A stretch of DNA of 64,000 nucleotides from an uncultured SAR86 cluster bacterium. Lineage in GTDB: Bacteria; Pseudomonadota; Gammaproteobacteria; Magnimaribacterales; D2472. The notes below the pieces were generated by a model. It searched no databases. It saw only the letters and a program-made list of their open reading frames with translations, and was not told where the DNA came from. Every line of letters starts with the position of its first letter. Position 1 is the stretch's first letter. This document shows, one piece after another, positions 27,689 to 38,564 of the stretch. Both the position numbers and the translations under genes were made by a program. The stretch spans positions 47,083-111,082 of the forward strand of contig CACJKN010000001.1 in the NCBI GenBank assembly GCA_902594005.1, written 5' to 3'.

Positions 27689-28162
27689 TTGAATAGTTTT
27701 AGATTTAATTTTTTTTGCTCAATATTTGTTTTATCTTCATGTGTATCAAATACAGTAAATGTAAAACCAAATACTGAAGAGTATTCACAACTAGTTGGTA
27801 CGCCAGTATATATAAAAAGATCATCCGATAAAGATATTAATACTTTTGAGGATGAGTTAGATGAATGTATAAAAACATCTAATACTAGAGTAAATAGGTC
27901 TTCAAAAGTTGGCATTGGTTTTGGGTCGTATTTGGCATTAGGAGGGCTTTATATGATTGCAACTGCAAGTGGAGTCTTTGCTCCTATTTATGTTGCGGCA
28001 GGTACTGTAGGGGGCGTCTTGGGAGGCTCAACAATTTTTGTTACAAGGGCGACTAAGGAATTTAGAGAGTATTCCAGTCTTGAGAGTTGCTTAGAAAAAC
28101 AAGGACATGATGTTGTTTTTTATGATGATGGTAAAGCAAAAAAAGATAAAAGTGATCTTTAG
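27689..28162 (+). CDS. Hypothetical lipoprotein/membrane protein
   Basis: Non-ATG (TTG) start; lipobox-like VLSSCVSN. Confidence 0.5.
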   Translation: MNSFRFNFFCSIFVLSSCVSNTVNVKPNTEEYSQLVGTPVYIKRSSDKDINTFEDELDECIKTSNTRVNRSSKVGIGFGSYLALGGLYMIATASGVFAPIYVAAGTVGGVLGGSTIFVTRATKEFREYSSLESCLEKQGHDVVFYDDGKAKKDKSDL

Positions 28163-31999: not shown

Positions 32000-32287
32000 T
32001 TAAGTTATTAATTTAGGTATTATCCCCAATTGGGAAAGGATGCCAAAAATAATTAATAATATAATGCTAGCGGGTATTTGAAGATTTTTCTTTTCCACCC
32101 AATCAAATGAGTATTCTGTTAGTTTTCTTATCCATTTATCAGCTTTATCCATTAACTTTATAGCTTTTCTTGTCCATTTGTCGGTCGCATCAATTAGTAG
32201 CAGAGAAAGTACAGCGATGATAAGCCAGATAAACCCATTTAAGATCATGTCTATAATCCAACCAACTGCTATCCAATTCATTTCCAT
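32000..32287 (-). CDS. Hypothetical membrane protein
   Basis: ORF, two hydrophobic segments. Confidence 0.5.
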   Translation of the reverse strand: MEMNWIAVGWIIDMILNGFIWLIIAVLSLLLIDATDKWTRKAIKLMDKADKWIRKLTEYSFDWVEKKNLQIPASIILLIIFGILSQLGIIPKLIT

Positions 32288-32328: not shown

Positions 32329-32346
32329 CTATTCGACGGTGACGGA
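32329..32346 (-). repeat. glmS 3'-end copy 4 (TCC GTC ACC GTC GAA TAG = SVTVE*)
   Basis: Reverse complement of ctattcgacggtgacgga. Confidence 0.75.
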
Positions 32347-32371
32347 TTGTTTTCGTCGTGTCGTGATCATG

Positions 32372-33070
32372 CTAACGCTCGTAACCCATTGCATCGAACT
32401 CGATCCTGCAGTTCTTATATATTTGGTCCTTTACTTTCTGCGACAACAGCTCGGATGCAGGCCTTCTGTTAGTTCGGAATTTGTGTTTGGTTTGTGGATA
32501 GTGCGCGACAATATCAAATTCAAGCCTGTCGCCGAGAGTTGTGAGGTCTTCCTGCATATTGTCAAAATTGACAATGAAATCGACAATAGGTTTTTCACCG
32601 TCTGAATAGGTTGGGTAATTGACGTAATACTTCTTCTTCAGAACACGCTCAAGCTCCTTGTCAAAACTCCAGTTCTTTTTTCCGCGCGCATGATAATAGA
32701 TATGTGATACAACCTTTTCGTACGGATGCCTTTCGATCGAAAAAGTGAAGTAATCATCGTAAGTTTTTTTGCCGACGTACTCGCGAATCGCAACAGCCGG
32801 CATATGATTGAAAAACTTGCCACGGCGTCTGGCGCGTAAAAATTTCATCTTGCGTGCCTTTATCATATCGCGATATCGCTGCTCTCCAAGACCACCGTAG
32901 TTCTGAGGTAACGTGCCGCCCATGTCCAGCCTGACGAGTTCGTCTTCAAACGATATCGGAGTGATGATGTCATCGGGACCACAGACTTGGCTCAGACTAA
33001 CCTCCATGCTTGTGCCCGAGGTTTTACGGGTCTTTACGAAAATAAACTTCTTTGCATGGCTAACGATCAT
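32372..33070 (-). CDS. Sulfotransferase family protein (family 2-like)
   Basis: KKFIFVKTRKTSGTSMEVSLS 5'-phosphosulfate-loop-like motif; FSIERHPYEKVVSHIYYH. Confidence 0.8.
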   Translation of the reverse strand: MIVSHAKKFIFVKTRKTSGTSMEVSLSQVCGPDDIITPISFEDELVRLDMGGTLPQNYGGLGEQRYRDMIKARKMKFLRARRRGKFFNHMPAVAIREYVGKKTYDDYFTFSIERHPYEKVVSHIYYHARGKKNWSFDKELERVLKKKYYVNYPTYSDGEKPIVDFIVNFDNMQEDLTTLGDRLEFDIVAHYPQTKHKFRTNRRPASELLSQKVKDQIYKNCRIEFDAMGYER

Positions 33071-33866
33071 TGGTTGCTCTGCTGATTCGACTAAGTCCTT
33101 TCTTGCGCCGATAGATAGCTATTTTTCTCGAAGCATCAATGGGTTGCGAAATTCTCTGCCAAAAACGTTTTTTCTCCGGATACCAACTGTTAGATTTATC
33201 CGGTAAAACGCCGTCCAGAACAACTTCCCAATCCGGCGATGATTCGTATCCACAACCGACCAGATCTGGTGTCATTGTGCCGTGGATTGACTGCTGTTGA
33301 ACGATGCGACCGAGATGTTTTCGCCAGACACCGACACTGGTCGGCTCAATAGGACGGACGCCACGCATTGCAACCTTTGACTTTTCAGACACTTGCGCGT
33401 GTTCATGGTACTCAGAAAATTTGTGTTGTTTCTCAAGCCATGGAAATTTTGCAGTGATTTGGCTTTGTGTGGCGTCAGGGTTATTTACGAAATCCTCGTA
33501 CCGGATATTGAGAAAACGATCGTGGCCGAACAATGGGCGTGCACAGGCATGCAATTCACGCCAAAGCCTAATGTTCGAGTAGTACATATCCTTGCTCTTA
33601 CCGTGCCGGCTAACGATGACATCACGCGGATCGCGCGTTACGTAAATGACATAGAGATTAGGATCGTCGATGACTCCTGGCATGTACAACGTATCTTTGG
33701 GTCGTTTCGTGATAACCACATCGTTGTTTTTTGCGGTTACGAGGTGAAAGCGAATCTCATGGTCATAATGCTTGTTTGTCCGAAAACAGGTGACCATCGC
33801 CTCGTGCAAGAGAGTAGTACCGGATCGCGGCGAGCAGGCAACAATGTGAATGTGCTTAAATATACG
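33060..33866 (-). CDS. Sulfotransferase domain protein (start uncertain, possible 5' lesion)
   Basis: ORF track starts at a TTG at 33809 but the same frame is open to 33866 and encodes KHIHIVACSPRSGTTLLHEAM (PAPS loop); VIYVTRDPRDVIVSRHG. Confidence 0.8.
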   Translation of the reverse strand, partial: RIFKHIHIVACSPRSGTTLLHEAMVTCFRTNKHYDHEIRFHLVTAKNNDVVITKRPKDTLYMPGVIDDPNLYVIYVTRDPRDVIVSRHGKSKDMYYSNIRLWRELHACARPLFGHDRFLNIRYEDFVNNPDATQSQITAKFPWLEKQHKFSEYHEHAQVSEKSKVAMRGVRPIEPTSVGVWRKHLGRIVQQQSIHGTMTPDLVGCGYESSPDWEVVLDGVLPDKSNSWYPEKKRFWQRISQPIDASRKIAIYRRKKGLSRISRATNDR

Positions 33867-33930
33867 TCAACTCCCTAGTGCGCCGTAACAGAGTGGAATT
33901 AACCCGACCCTCATTTGTATTCATTTTTAT

Positions 33931-33948
33931 TCATTCAACAGTAACGGA
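33931..33948 (-). repeat. glmS 3'-end copy 3 (TCC GTT ACT GTT GAA TGA = SVTVE*)
   Basis: Reverse complement of tcattcaacagtaacgga. Confidence 0.75.
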
Positions 33949-34020
33949 GTAAGGTGAACCGATCTTCCATTCATCACTTTTTCTGCGGTGTTTTAAAGAA
34001 TCTATATTTGATTGCATATC

Positions 34021-34248
34021 TTACCCGTCAGCCCCAAAGAAACCATCACCATCGTCACTATCATCACTTGATTCACCCTCTTCATCTATTCTATTTTCAA
34101 TATCTCTGTCGTCTTGAAAGATATTAGTGGCGATTATGGTTGTTATTGCTAGCATTGGCATGGTGTAAACCATGGCATTAGTCATAATTGCAATTGCATA
34201 TGTTGGTATCGCAATTATTAAAACTTTTTTTATAAGATTTTTTTTCAT
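34021..34248 (-). CDS. Hypothetical small membrane protein
   Basis: ORF; hydrophobic N-half, acidic C-terminus. Confidence 0.5.
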   Translation of the reverse strand: MKKNLIKKVLIIAIPTYAIAIMTNAMVYTMPMLAITTIIATNIFQDDRDIENRIDEEGESSDDSDDGDGFFGADG

Positions 34249-34254
34249 ACTTTA

Positions 34255-34944
34255 TTATAAATTCTTAATTTCAGAATGATGTATTAATTTTATATCATTT
34301 GCTTCAGCAAGTTTTTTTGCACTATTAGTGAAACCTGCATTTGATATCACCACTCCAATATTTGCTCCATAATATCCCATTCCAGCAACCACTTCTTGAA
34401 CTGCGCTATTACCTACAGGTTTTTGATATTTTTTGCATTGTCCAACAAGATAATCATTGCCCTTCTTGGCAATTACATCAACTCCTTGATCCGATGAACC
34501 AGATGTTGCATTTGCTTCATCCCAACCACACTTTAAAAACTGATTTGCGCAGTAGTGTTCATAGTCATATGGATCCATGTCTTCAGTGAAATCTTCAGAT
34601 AAAGAATACCCCTCTATAACTTCTTCAATCTTATATATTGTTTCATCAGGAATCTGAAAGTCTCCTAGTTCGGTTGCATACTCAATAACTTCTTTTGATT
34701 CAGTATTATCTAAAAGATATTCGATTAGTTCTTTTTTAAATTTTGTATAGTTTTTTTTACCAAAGCTATTACTTGAAACGCTATTTCTGTATGCAGTTGC
34801 TACCAATGAGGTGTTATTCATCATTAAGTTACTTAATTCATCTTCAAGCGACCTAATTGCTTTTTCTTTAGTATTTTTTTTTCCAAGCCATTTAACACCC
34901 AGGTAAAGACAGTAAATCCCAAAAATTGCCAACAGCCATTCCAT
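34255..34944 (-). CDS. Mrr-like restriction endonuclease domain membrane-anchored protein
   Basis: GWDEANATSGSSDQGVDVIAKKGNDYLVGQCKKY (D-x(n)-QxK PD-(D/E)XK signature), N-terminal TM. Confidence 0.85.
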   Translation of the reverse strand: MEWLLAIFGIYCLYLGVKWLGKKNTKEKAIRSLEDELSNLMMNNTSLVATAYRNSVSSNSFGKKNYTKFKKELIEYLLDNTESKEVIEYATELGDFQIPDETIYKIEEVIEGYSLSEDFTEDMDPYDYEHYCANQFLKCGWDEANATSGSSDQGVDVIAKKGNDYLVGQCKKYQKPVGNSAVQEVVAGMGYYGANIGVVISNAGFTNSAKKLAEANDIKLIHHSEIKNL

Positions 34945-34951
34945 AAAAATA

Positions 34952-35977
34952 TTAAACTTGCTTTAATGCTGAATCAACTAGCTTTTTCTTATATTTGCTA
35001 AGTTCAAATGTTGATACCTTTTCTAGGTTGTATGAAACACCATCAATGACGATTGAATTTGTTGTAGTAGATAGAGTTAGGTGGCAAATCTCTTTTGATG
35101 GCATATCATCAACAAGAATTTTAAACTGGCCTTTGTAGTCTTTATAACCAAACCTATCACAATGAATTTTGAGTCTTGGATTCATAACTAAGATTGTCTT
35201 TATGATTTGGAATGACTTTTGCTCTTCTGCTGTTGTAAAGATACCAGATGAAGATTGTCTTCCTTCTAAAACTTTAATTTTTTCAATAGCCTCATGGAGA
35301 GAAACTGAATTTAATAATTTTCTAAGTCGTTTATTTTTTGATTCTGTTGCTCTTTTTCCTCCCATGTTTTGATATATCATTTTTAATAGCCCATCACTTG
35401 CTGGAAAGAGGGTTTTTGTCAGAGCAATATTAAAATCATTTAAAAAATAGGTTTCTTCAGAAATTTCTAAAATATCCTTCACGTTAAAAAGTTGTAAATG
35501 GAAATTCGCAATATCTTCTAGATCCGATCTTGTGAAGTCTCTCAAATCAAATACAAGAAATGGTTCTTCGCATAATGATTTACTGTTATTCCATTTCACA
35601 GTGTAGAACTCATACACAACTCCATTGGTTAAGATGCCGATCTTTGACTCTTTATGATGATCAAAATATTTAGATAGTTGTTTAAAGTGAGATTTAGTTA
35701 GGTTTGAAGTTGCTTTTTTACACTCTATTAACATTATGGGATTTTTCCTATTAAGGGTAACCACCATATCTACTTTTCTTACACTTCCTTTGGTATTTCT
35801 TAAACTATATTCATGTGAATAATGATCCATTTTGTTATAGCCCAATAAATTAAAAAATGGTTCTATTAGGTAATCTCTTGTCTTGGACTCGTTGTCGCTC
35901 AACTTGATTGCCTTTTTATAATCCCATTTATCAAATGATTTTTCTAAAAGACTACCAATCTGTTTTATTGTTGCCAT
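34952..35977 (-). CDS. Type I restriction HsdR N-terminal-like nuclease domain protein
   Basis: SKTRDYLIEPFFNLLGYN...VRKVDMVVTLNRKNPIMLIECKKA (PD-(D/E)XK: D...ECKK). Confidence 0.8.
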   Translation of the reverse strand: MATIKQIGSLLEKSFDKWDYKKAIKLSDNESKTRDYLIEPFFNLLGYNKMDHYSHEYSLRNTKGSVRKVDMVVTLNRKNPIMLIECKKATSNLTKSHFKQLSKYFDHHKESKIGILTNGVVYEFYTVKWNNSKSLCEEPFLVFDLRDFTRSDLEDIANFHLQLFNVKDILEISEETYFLNDFNIALTKTLFPASDGLLKMIYQNMGGKRATESKNKRLRKLLNSVSLHEAIEKIKVLEGRQSSSGIFTTAEEQKSFQIIKTILVMNPRLKIHCDRFGYKDYKGQFKILVDDMPSKEICHLTLSTTTNSIVIDGVSYNLEKVSTFELSKYKKKLVDSALKQV

Positions 35978-36176
35978 AAAAATATTCTGCCATAACTCTC
36001 TTTAAATGTCCTATGAATACACATAAGAGACCGCAACAAGTCATATCAACACCTTATGACTTACGCTAACACGAAAAAATAGGTGAAATTTTTAGGGTAG
36101 TTTTTAGTGGGGTTAAATTTTAGCGATTTTTGAAACCCCAGCAGAATGCGAGGTTAAAACTGATTGTCTTCCAAAC

Positions 36177-36194
36177 TTACTCGACCGTGACGAA
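36177..36194 (-). repeat. glmS 3'-end copy 2 (TTC GTC ACG GTC GAG TAA = F-VTVE*)
   Basis: Reverse complement of ttactcgaccgtgacgaa. Confidence 0.7.
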
Positions 36195-36214
36195 ATAAGT
36201 GCGAGTAGTGATTT
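36194..36214. repeat. 21-bp inverted repeat, left arm
   Basis: aataagtgcgagtagtgattt; perfect reverse complement of 36722-36742. Confidence 0.95.
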
Positions 36215-36224
36215 GGTAAATGTA

Positions 36225-36554
36225 TTAGATAACGTTTTTAGTTTCAACAATTCGACATTTACCTAACTTGAACTCACCATTATCAAACTCAAGATTTTCT
36301 CTATCTACATTGAACGGTTGACTGAAGTCTGCATAGGGATTTTTGCAAGACCAATTTATATAGGAACTTGTGAAAGTCACATCACACCTTTGAGAATATC
36401 CATTACTTCGCTCCATAGAACCAATATCTTTATTTTTATCAGCAGTTAATTTAATCCATTTATCATTATTATCGTAATCACATTTAAGAAATATTTCTGA
36501 GGCAGCAATATTGGTAGAAATAAGAAAAAGGACTGCGAGCGTTAATTGTTTCAT
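36225..36554 (-). CDS. Hypothetical small secreted protein
   Basis: Signal peptide MKQLTLAVLFLISTNIAAS; four Cys in mature part. Confidence 0.6.
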   Translation of the reverse strand: MKQLTLAVLFLISTNIAASEIFLKCDYDNNDKWIKLTADKNKDIGSMERSNGYSQRCDVTFTSSYINWSCKNPYADFSQPFNVDRENLEFDNGEFKLGKCRIVETKNVI

Positions 36555-36721
36555 AATTTTAAGAGTTATTAATTTGTTTTATTTTTACACATTAAATAAC
36601 AAATTTCATCCTTAAAAGTTTTGTCTTGTATGTTTTTTGTTCTTTTTGAGGGTAAGCAACTAAATAATCACTTCTGCAATGAAGAATAAAAGTTAAATAT
36701 GTGTCTTTGTTGCGTAATGCG

Positions 36722-36742
36722 AAATCACTACTCGCACTTATT
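36722..36742. repeat. 21-bp inverted repeat, right arm (overlaps glmS stop codon)
   Basis: aaatcactactcgcacttatt. Confidence 0.95.
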
Positions 36743-38564
36743 CCACAGTCACTGATTTAGCTAAATTTCTTGGTTGGTCTAAGTCTGTTCCCCTTAGGCA
36801 AGCTACCTCATAAGCCAATATCTGAAGGGGTATGGTGTAAACAATTGGAGCATTAAAATCGCCACATTCAGGCATATTGATGAATTTTCCTTTTTTTATT
36901 TCAATCGTTGAACTAGAGTTTCCAAAAACATACAGAGTTCCGCCTCTTGCCTTAACTTCTTCAAGGTTTGATAGTAGTTTCTCAACTAAGCTATCTTCTG
37001 GAGCTAATGCTATAACTGGAATAGTTTCATCAACTAGGGCTAGTGGCCCATGCTTTAACTCACCTGCTGGATAAGCTTCCGCATGGATATAAGAAATTTC
37101 TTTGAGTTTAAGTGCGCCCTCTTGAGCAATTGAGAAATACATTCCTCTTCCTAAAAAGAGGGCATTATCGTTTGATGAAATATTATTTGTGATTGAGTTA
37201 ATTTCATCTTTTAGCTTGAAGGCTTTTTCTATTAGGGCGGGAGTCTCCCTTAAATCTTGAGCCGCTTGTTTGCGCTTTTCAGGATTTTTTTCCTGACTTT
37301 TTGCAATAGATAGAGCAAGAATTAATAGCGCCGCAAGTTGTGTTGTAAAGGCTTTTGTGGAGGCCACTCCGATCTCAGGGCCTGCATTTGTGAAGACTTT
37401 CCAATCTGATTCTCTTGCCATTGTGCTAGTAGGCACATTACATATTGAGACGATGCCAATATATTTTTCTTCCTTCGCATAATTTAATGCAGCAAGCGTA
37501 TCTGCGGTTTCACCTGACTGAGAAATAGTCACAAAAAGAGTATTGTTTTCAACAATGGGGTTTCTGTACCTATATTCACTGGCAAAATCTATATAACAAG
37601 GAATTTCGCAAATATCCTCAAACCATTTTCTTGCAGTTTTTGCTGCATGTAAGCTTGTTCCACATGCTACAAAGTGTATTCTCTTAACCTCTCTAAATGC
37701 ATCAGATGAGCCTAACCCAAAAACATTATCCAATACATCGTTTTCACCGAGCCTACCATTTATGGTGTTTCCAATACACTCAGGCTGTTCATAAATCTCT
37801 TTTTCCATAAAATGCTTATAATCACCTTTTGTTGTTGCAGTTGCGGTTGCTTCAATCTTTAACTCATCTCGATCAACCTTTGCTCCTGTATTATCAAAAA
37901 TGACCGCATCATCTTTTGTTATAACTGAGAAGTCGCCGTCTTCGAGCATATGGAATTTTTCTGTAATATTTACGATTGCTAAAGGATCAGAGGCTATAAA
38001 ATTTTCTTCAATGCCTATGCCAACAAGTAGTGGGCTTTTTTGTCTAGCAGCGTAGACTTTGCCCTTTTCTTTTTGTGATACAGCAGCTATTGAATATGCT
38101 CCTTTAAGATCTTTTGTTGCTCGCATTAAGGCTTTAAGCGTGTCTTTTGTATCTTTATTATAGAAATGAATTAAGTGAGCGATAAGCTCTGAATCGGTTT
38201 CTGATGTAACTTCATAACTTTCTTTTCTTAAAAAATCTCTTATCTCTTCATGATTCTCAATTATGCCGTTATGAACAATAAAAATATCATCATGTGACCC
38301 GTGCGGATGAGCATTTTCTTCAGATGGAGCTCCGTGAGTAGCCCAACGAGTATGGGCTATACCTGATAGCGCTCTAGGTTTTTTGGAGATCATTAAGTCT
38401 TCTAATTTAGAAACCTTTCCTAGCGATCTAAGTCTTAAAATCTCCTCTTCTTTGTTGAGAACAACTCCCGCTGAGTCATAGCCTCTATATTCCATGAGCT
38501 GGAGTCCTTTTATTAGGATTTTTCCAACGCTTCTAGATGAAGCGGCTCCAATTATTCCGCACAT
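36738..38564 (-). CDS. glmS: Glutamine--fructose-6-phosphate aminotransferase (isomerizing)
   Basis: MCGIIGAASSRSVGKILIKGLQLMEYRGYDSAG; SQSGETADTLAAL; C-terminus DLDQPRNLAKSVTVE. Confidence 0.98.
   Translation of the reverse strand: MCGIIGAASSRSVGKILIKGLQLMEYRGYDSAGVVLNKEEEILRLRSLGKVSKLEDLMISKKPRALSGIAHTRWATHGAPSEENAHPHGSHDDIFIVHNGIIENHEEIRDFLRKESYEVTSETDSELIAHLIHFYNKDTKDTLKALMRATKDLKGAYSIAAVSQKEKGKVYAARQKSPLLVGIGIEENFIASDPLAIVNITEKFHMLEDGDFSVITKDDAVIFDNTGAKVDRDELKIEATATATTKGDYKHFMEKEIYEQPECIGNTINGRLGENDVLDNVFGLGSSDAFREVKRIHFVACGTSLHAAKTARKWFEDICEIPCYIDFASEYRYRNPIVENNTLFVTISQSGETADTLAALNYAKEEKYIGIVSICNVPTSTMARESDWKVFTNAGPEIGVASTKAFTTQLAALLILALSIAKSQEKNPEKRKQAAQDLRETPALIEKAFKLKDEINSITNNISSNDNALFLGRGMYFSIAQEGALKLKEISYIHAEAYPAGELKHGPLALVDETIPVIALAPEDSLVEKLLSNLEEVKARGGTLYVFGNSSSTIEIKKGKFINMPECGDFNAPIVYTIPLQILAYEVACLRGTDLDQPRNLAKSVTVE

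Follow-up and report, generated by a model that had tools for sequence, protein, structure and literature searches.

Why should the coding end of glmS recur three more times, in the same orientation, downstream of the gene itself? The question is raised by a 64,000-nucleotide stretch of DNA from an uncultured SAR86 cluster bacterium (contig CACJKN010000001.1, positions 47,083 to 111,082; the whole stretch is called the window below), in which an initial annotation had noticed this ladder of glmS ends and had read it as serial insertion of elements into the gene. SAR86 bacteria are among the most abundant in the surface ocean and have streamlined genomes, and to our knowledge few mobile elements have been recognized in them. 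In the present work, we examine the origin of the ladder by comparing the window with related genomes. We will show that the repeated ends are the boundaries of mobile gene cassettes arranged in an array, that DNA is exchanged at a dinucleotide of the boundary, and that one such array contains a large serine recombinase, which is the likely type of enzyme. No description of a cassette system in the glmS tail was found in the literature searched, which excluded subscription papers and preprints.

The window contains four copies of a sequence encoding V-T-V-E-stop, all on the minus strand, in the orientation of glmS and spanning 4.4 kb downstream of it, the first copy being the end of glmS itself (Table 1). 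No other match to GTNACNGTNGARTRR occurs in the window, where 0.02 matches are expected and where none of 100 shuffles got to four, or in the rest of the host genome (988,607 bases in total). As had been noted initially, the differences among the four copies within V-T-V-E fall at third codon positions, the stop codon is variable, and the open reading frames (ORFs) between the copies point the same way as glmS. A fifth, decayed copy with two mismatches, GTTACGGCGCACTAG, divides the third block, and the first block has its own inverted terminal arms, a perfect 21-base pair. A scan of the locus against Rfam matched no RNA family.

The motif is carried by 90 of the 107 genomes of the window's family, mostly in several copies (at most 11) on one strand of one contig, whereas the reversed control pattern gives 0-2 matches in the same genomes. 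Two further families of the order also have same-strand ladders, which makes three in total. In 365 Gammaproteobacteria outside SAR86, on the other hand, ladders are absent; a longer form of the motif is typically found once, as is expected from glmS itself, and no more than twice per strand. About 85 arrays could be retrieved, nearly all of which start at a glmS end reading R-N-L-A-K-S-V-T-V-E. It is important to point out that the genomes were assembled from single cells or metagenomes, that some are incomplete, and that contig ends may cut arrays.

A scan using 12 fixed positions (A at -5, T at -3, C at -2 and the invariant codon bases) was made over 598 kb downstream of glmS in the relatives. 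It gave 166, 69 and 41 sense sites with zero, one and two mismatches, respectively, compared to 1, 0 and 6 antisense sites. The S codon position upstream of V-T-V-E is conserved as well: 97% of the 213 distal sites have the A at -5 and the T at -3, two bases that lay outside the original search pattern. Chance or a coding repeat as the origin of the ladder is ruled out by the copy counts and the direction bias. Separately, we observed that in a non-SAR86 gammaproteobacterium of about 1 Mb (L196 of G550, positions 1433-2413) the glmS end is followed by one 980-base block, which has a 309-aa ORF and then a second GTAACAGTGGAATAA at its end, clear arms being absent. This is possibly a one-cassette case outside the order.

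We now turn to the point of exchange. Among pairs of sites, which are not fully independent of each other, those with the same upstream and different downstream cassettes agree in 85% of cases at the third base of the first Val codon (position 2) and in 31%, which is about random, at the third base of the Thr codon (position 5). When only the downstream cassette is common, the agreement is 28% at position 2 and 96% at the third base of the Glu codon (position 11). Since position 2 tracks the upstream and position 11 the downstream cassette, the exchange can be placed inside the invariant AC of GTN/AC/N, and therefore the incoming cassette supplies T-V-E-stop while the host keeps ...K-S-V. At the first Val codon, the glmS sites show a preference not shared by the distal sites (63% GTC), and from the Thr codon on their distribution is close to that of the distal sites. 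The original suggestion, that elements cut within V-T-V-E, bring a replacement C-terminus and push older ends outward, agrees well with these results: the crossover falls after the first Val codon and before the third base of the Thr codon, and the right half of the site follows the incoming cassette. A separate observation is that positions 5 and 8 of the motif are, throughout the sites, far more variable than the adjoining cassette DNA. Mismatch repair of the exchanged ends, mutation bias and diversifying selection are possible causes.

Cutting at the sites yields 245 cassettes in 85 arrays, with a median length of 655 bases and 179 sequence clusters. These counts depend on tolerating one mismatch per site, and a decayed site that is missed leaves its neighbouring cassettes fused. 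The longest ORF is co-oriented with glmS in 202 of 228 cassettes (202:26). A given cassette can recur beside different neighbours and in different orders. The window's sulfotransferase cassette, for example, is present in 11 arrays (10 besides the window), a 1,104-base cassette in five and a 541-base cassette in three, and some cassette runs are common to several arrays in the same order. In one relative (G008), the window's cassette 2 directly follows glmS, which constitutes an exact empty site for cassette 1. Empty/filled pairs of this kind are precise both at glmS and at internal sites. Insertion into the glmS end thus takes place as proposed, but it is not confined to that location. Site decay climbs only slightly with distance, from 0.22 to 0.35 mismatches, which does not demonstrate a strict first-in, last-out order.

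Many of the cargo genes belong to restriction-modification or defence. One array (L125) contains a whole type I restriction-modification system, and further cargo includes a C5 methyltransferase, SRA-HNH and MrcB-N-HNH nucleases and other HNH proteins; many cargo proteins are without a family match. We also observed a class of 16 cassettes (window_c2, L069_c1, L113_c2, L125_c1, L126_c2, L145_c4 and others) whose arms differ. Their 5' ends share a terminator-like stem and/or a leader (TTAGCGnAAGTCATAAGG...ATG), and most of them also have a 3' segment in common.

The cassette ends bear inverted arms outside the core. Their mean own-end score is 19.0, compared to 12.5 for swapped ends and 11.4 for an inner control, and of 104 clear cases, 99 have a dyad whose centre is precisely the A/C step. 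Large serine recombinases exchange 2 bp at the centre of a dyad, and arms centred between A and C thus provide the geometry expected of the attachment (att) sites of these enzymes. Dyad symmetry has been called characteristic of serine-recombinase att sites (PMC6222049). Several arm families recur (AACAGTGATTT, AACAGAGAATTA, TGCAGAATTA, GTCGGTCTTTC and others). A common cassette backbone may bear different arms, and the arms tend to match within one cassette.

Serine recombinases were found in three of 106 family genomes, and the one in G084 sits inside the first element of the glmS array. The 6,047 bases of this element encode a large serine recombinase of 551 aa, along with a Rep-like protein of the rolling-circle type. 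The recombinase matches PF00239 (6e-24), PF07508 (1e-11, above the cut-off) and a phage integrase family (3e-78); its zinc ribbon scores 21.7 bits, below the cut-off of 25.3. The catalytic-Ser region YTRVST and the DRLSR motif align to the TP901-1 integrase, and the gene ends about 30 bases from the distal site. Among 140 representative cassette proteins, it was the only integrase-family match seen. The arms of the element, GTTTAGTCGGTCTTTC and GTTTAATCGGTCTTTC (16 bases each), recur with 16/16 and 16/16 identities on a recombinase-less HNH cassette in G078, and with 16/16 and 15/16 in G079. Of the signs of mobilisation in trans, this recurrence is the strongest. The initial annotation had suggested such mobilisation, or else decay of the elements, and had proposed a search for relatives with a recombinase in the same slot; such a relative was indeed found, while mobilisation in trans we still infer.

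The other two large serine recombinases (L180 and L181, in G079 and G088) lie away from glmS and have frames that run into tRNA-like tails (GIEPPTSC...), and they probably belong to tRNA-targeting elements. In phage and plasmid records, the relatives of the G084 recombinase are all distant (<60% identity), and the Rep of the element has no relative among phages; the viral contigs contain no relative of either protein and no arm patterns. A tyrosine recombinase was also considered as the array enzyme and was rejected: most genomes gave only two matches, and of the extra matches obtained in 14 genomes none is located in an array. Another observation concerns small proteins of 64-89 aa in seven cassettes (L079_c2, L081_c2, L093_c1, L097_c1, L100_c1, L103_c1 and L125_c7), whose genes mostly lie 120-160 bases from the cassette start. 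Those that were scanned match part of the PF07508 recombinase DNA-binding domain, and they could be accessory or directionality factors.

The mechanism that we propose is as follows. The array consists of mobile gene cassettes anchored in the 3' end of glmS. Each cassette extends between the AC dinucleotides of two successive sites, holds one or a few genes that run in the glmS direction, and is flanked by inverted arms that belong to it. In a circular cassette, the joined ends would form an attP-like dyad of about 50 bases (arm - AnTCNGTN - AC - NGTNGARTRR - arm). A large serine recombinase, whose identity we infer from the one element in G084, would recombine this dyad either with the same core in glmS, an attB-like site (K-S-V/T-V-E-stop), or with a boundary inside the array. 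The upstream DNA would keep the left half of the target, the right half of the new end (T-V-E-stop) would come from the cassette, and the old glmS end would be displaced outward. Because every cassette 5' end encodes T-V-E-stop, glmS would stay intact. Most cassettes have no recombinase and would depend on enzymes acting in trans from elements like the 6-kb one of G084, and the arm families would represent the specificities of different related recombinases.

We consider it likely that the cassettes are mostly non-autonomous and mediated by serine recombinases, with a chemistry like that of the staphylococcal cassette chromosome (SCC) and an architecture like that of integrons. We also favour, although less firmly, the wider view that this is a new type of system extending over the SAR86 order, in which large serine recombinases encoded by small elements with rolling-circle replication act in trans on non-autonomous cassettes with interchangeable arm specificities, and in which these cassettes enter and rebuild the glmS coding end and make up a shared pool of defence and niche genes. 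Several observations speak against serine recombination. A recombinase is present in just one of the 85 arrays and serine recombinases in only three of 106 genomes, so that the enzyme for most arm families is unseen, and a free circular or viral form was not found in the viral contigs. About half of the cassettes, including cassettes 2 and 3 of the window, are without clear matching arms. The third bases to the right of the cut, at positions 5 (Thr codon) and 8 (second Val codon), are more variable than a pure AC cut predicts: about 40% of pairs of otherwise near-identical cassette starts show differences there. Finally, the long perfect repeats that make up some arms could just as well be hairpins in folded form.

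Hairpins are what an integron-type mechanism would require. Here, a tyrosine recombinase would act on single-stranded hairpins of the joined arms, with glmS as an attI-like entry. The joined ends of the window's cassette 1 do fold into a hairpin of 21-23 bp (z = -7.8), the cassettes are small, co-oriented, mostly single-gene and arrayed, and the arm sequences vary yet match within a cassette. However, no integron integrase (TIGR02249) was found above the cut-off in 106 genomes, and in most genomes only two tyrosine recombinases were matched, which were assigned to XerC and XerD. The GTTRRRY core is absent, recurring families of arm sequences are not required by structure-only recognition, and the recombinase that is found in an array is of the serine type. 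We therefore regard this mechanism as unlikely. XerC and XerD themselves could recombine the boundaries, as in pdif modules, which would make a dedicated enzyme unnecessary. Recombinases of this type are present in nearly every genome, and most arrays are without a recombinase of their own. The boundaries of pdif modules resemble dif, whereas the SAR86 dif, CGCATAATATATATTATGTTAAAT, is unlike both the core and the arms of the array, and the arms differ between cassettes, which makes this option very improbable.

About equally improbable is that an old array is now shuffled solely by homologous recombination between flanking host genes and common cassettes. While glmS and the downstream genes could serve as anchors and some cassette runs keep their order, the boundaries fall at the dinucleotide in many combinations, the boundary homology is only about 15 bases, and the centring of the arms on the dinucleotide is left unexplained. 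Of all options, Tn7-like insertion beside glmS guided by TniQ/TnsD has the least in its favour and can be considered extremely unlikely. The 3' end of glmS is the established target of TnsD/TniQ, but Tn7 inserts downstream of the stop and neither touches nor duplicates the coding end, while here the exchange lies within it, at the V-T codons. A target-site duplication pattern is absent, and no transposase is among the cassette families listed. TniQ was unmatched in 106 genomes, in a search whose control also matched nowhere and which is thus uninformative, and Tns proteins were not seen, TnsABC being without a search of its own.

The SAR86 array is thus SCC-like in chemistry and target type and integron-like in architecture, and a member of neither group. 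Like SCC and the Enterococcus cassette chromosome (ECC), which use CcrAB, it combines a large serine recombinase, att dyad symmetry, a conserved housekeeping gene targeted at its 3' coding end, and element ends that restore this coding end. Several attR copies can mark composite islands in SCC/ECC (PMC6222049). The target there is rlmH instead of glmS, and the units differ in size, ECC having 21-78 kb and the SAR86 cassettes about 0.2-2 kb. In SAR86, moreover, a recombinase is missing from most units, the one in G084 was not typed as Ccr, long arrays are the rule, there are many arm families, and the hosts are Gammaproteobacteria. With integrons (IntI, attI, attC) the arrays share small co-oriented cassettes, imperfect palindromic end sites, single-point exchange, shuffling, and many cargo genes of unknown or defence type. 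They differ from them by the lack of IntI, of an attI/Pc platform and of GTTRRRY, the core being GTNACNGTNGARTRR, and in having the coding end of an essential gene as entry site and a linked recombinase of the serine type.

The nearest ecological parallel is the additive islands with repeated tRNA-gene ends in other pelagic bacteria, e.g. fGI-2 of Methylophilaceae (PMC10872708). These islands and tycheposons also occur in streamlined pelagic bacteria, with variable blocks bounded by repeats of gene 3' ends. They use tRNA genes, however, and tycheposons use tyrosine recombinases, whereas most SAR86 genomes have no third tyrosine recombinase; in SAR86 the repeated end is protein-coding and varies synonymously, and the att geometry is of the serine type. 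PLE satellites (phage-inducible chromosomal island-like elements) of Vibrio cholerae are mobile defence elements driven by a large serine recombinase, Int (PMC6002521). Unlike the SAR86 cassettes, a PLE is a single large element with its own recombinase and excision triggered by a phage protein, and it forms no cassette ladder in a gene end.

An order-wide array would explain how single genes, restriction systems included, are exchanged among streamlined SAR86 genomes. If a serine recombinase acts on it, this would be a natural case of such an enzyme doing the job of IntI in integrons. Any metagenome can be searched for the boundary code GTN/AC/NGTNGARTRR together with the arms, so as to catalogue the mobile gene pool, and the arm families may offer a set of orthogonal serine-recombinase sites.

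Table 1. Positions of glmS, the boundary sites, the cassettes and their genes in the window.
Feature	Positions	Strand	Description
glmS	36738-38564	-	608 aa, host target gene (from ORF, flank alignment and crossover mapping); final T-V-E-stop comes from the cassette inserted last
Site A	36738-36752	-	GTGACTGTGGAATAA; glmS end, glmS/cassette 1 junction; putative crossover AC 36748-36749
Cassette 1	36188-36749	-	561 bases; one 109-aa predicted secreted protein (36225-36554)
Cassette 1, proximal terminal arm	36722-36742	-	AATAAGTGCGAGTAGTGATTT; dyad centred on AC dinucleotide
Cassette 1, distal terminal arm	36194-36214	-	AAATCACTACTCGCACTTATT (- strand); perfect inverted copy of proximal arm
Site B	36177-36191	-	GTCACGGTCGAGTAA; cassette 1/cassette 2 junction; AC 36187-36188
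Cassette 2	33942-36188	-	2,246 bases; leader common to other cassettes, with terminator-like stem
Cassette 2 gene	34952-35977	-	HSDR_N_2 restriction-like protein
Cassette 2 gene	34255-34944	-	Mrr-like restriction endonuclease
Cassette 2 gene	within 33942-36188	-	small 75-aa protein
Site C	33931-33945	-	GTTACTGTTGAATGA; AC 33941-33942
Site C'	33875-33889	-	GTTACGGCGCACTAG; decayed (2 mismatches), marks 56-base cassette remnant
Cassette 3	32340-33942	-	1,602 bases, counting 56-base remnant
Cassette 3 gene	33060-33809	-	second sulfotransferase-like ORF, family match not significant
Cassette 3 gene	32372-33070	-	sulfotransferase-like protein, Sulfotransfer_2
Site D	32329-32343	-	GTCACCGTCGAATAG; outermost recognisable glmS-type end; AC 32339-32340
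Membrane protein	32000-32287	-	95 aa, directly beyond site D; resembles cassette protein of other arrays

The sulfotransferase cassette probably has its true 5' end at site C', and variants of its start were found in four other arrays (L070, L067, L092 and L071). In a comparison with seven other arrays, the left half of site D hardly varies and the right half is different, and the 95-aa membrane protein outside it probably represents a further cassette with a decayed outer site. Beyond the array, on the opposite strand (+) and with no good att-like site nearby, a gene at 27689-28162 encodes a protein that resembles the one of the 541-base cassette (L139_c4 and others).

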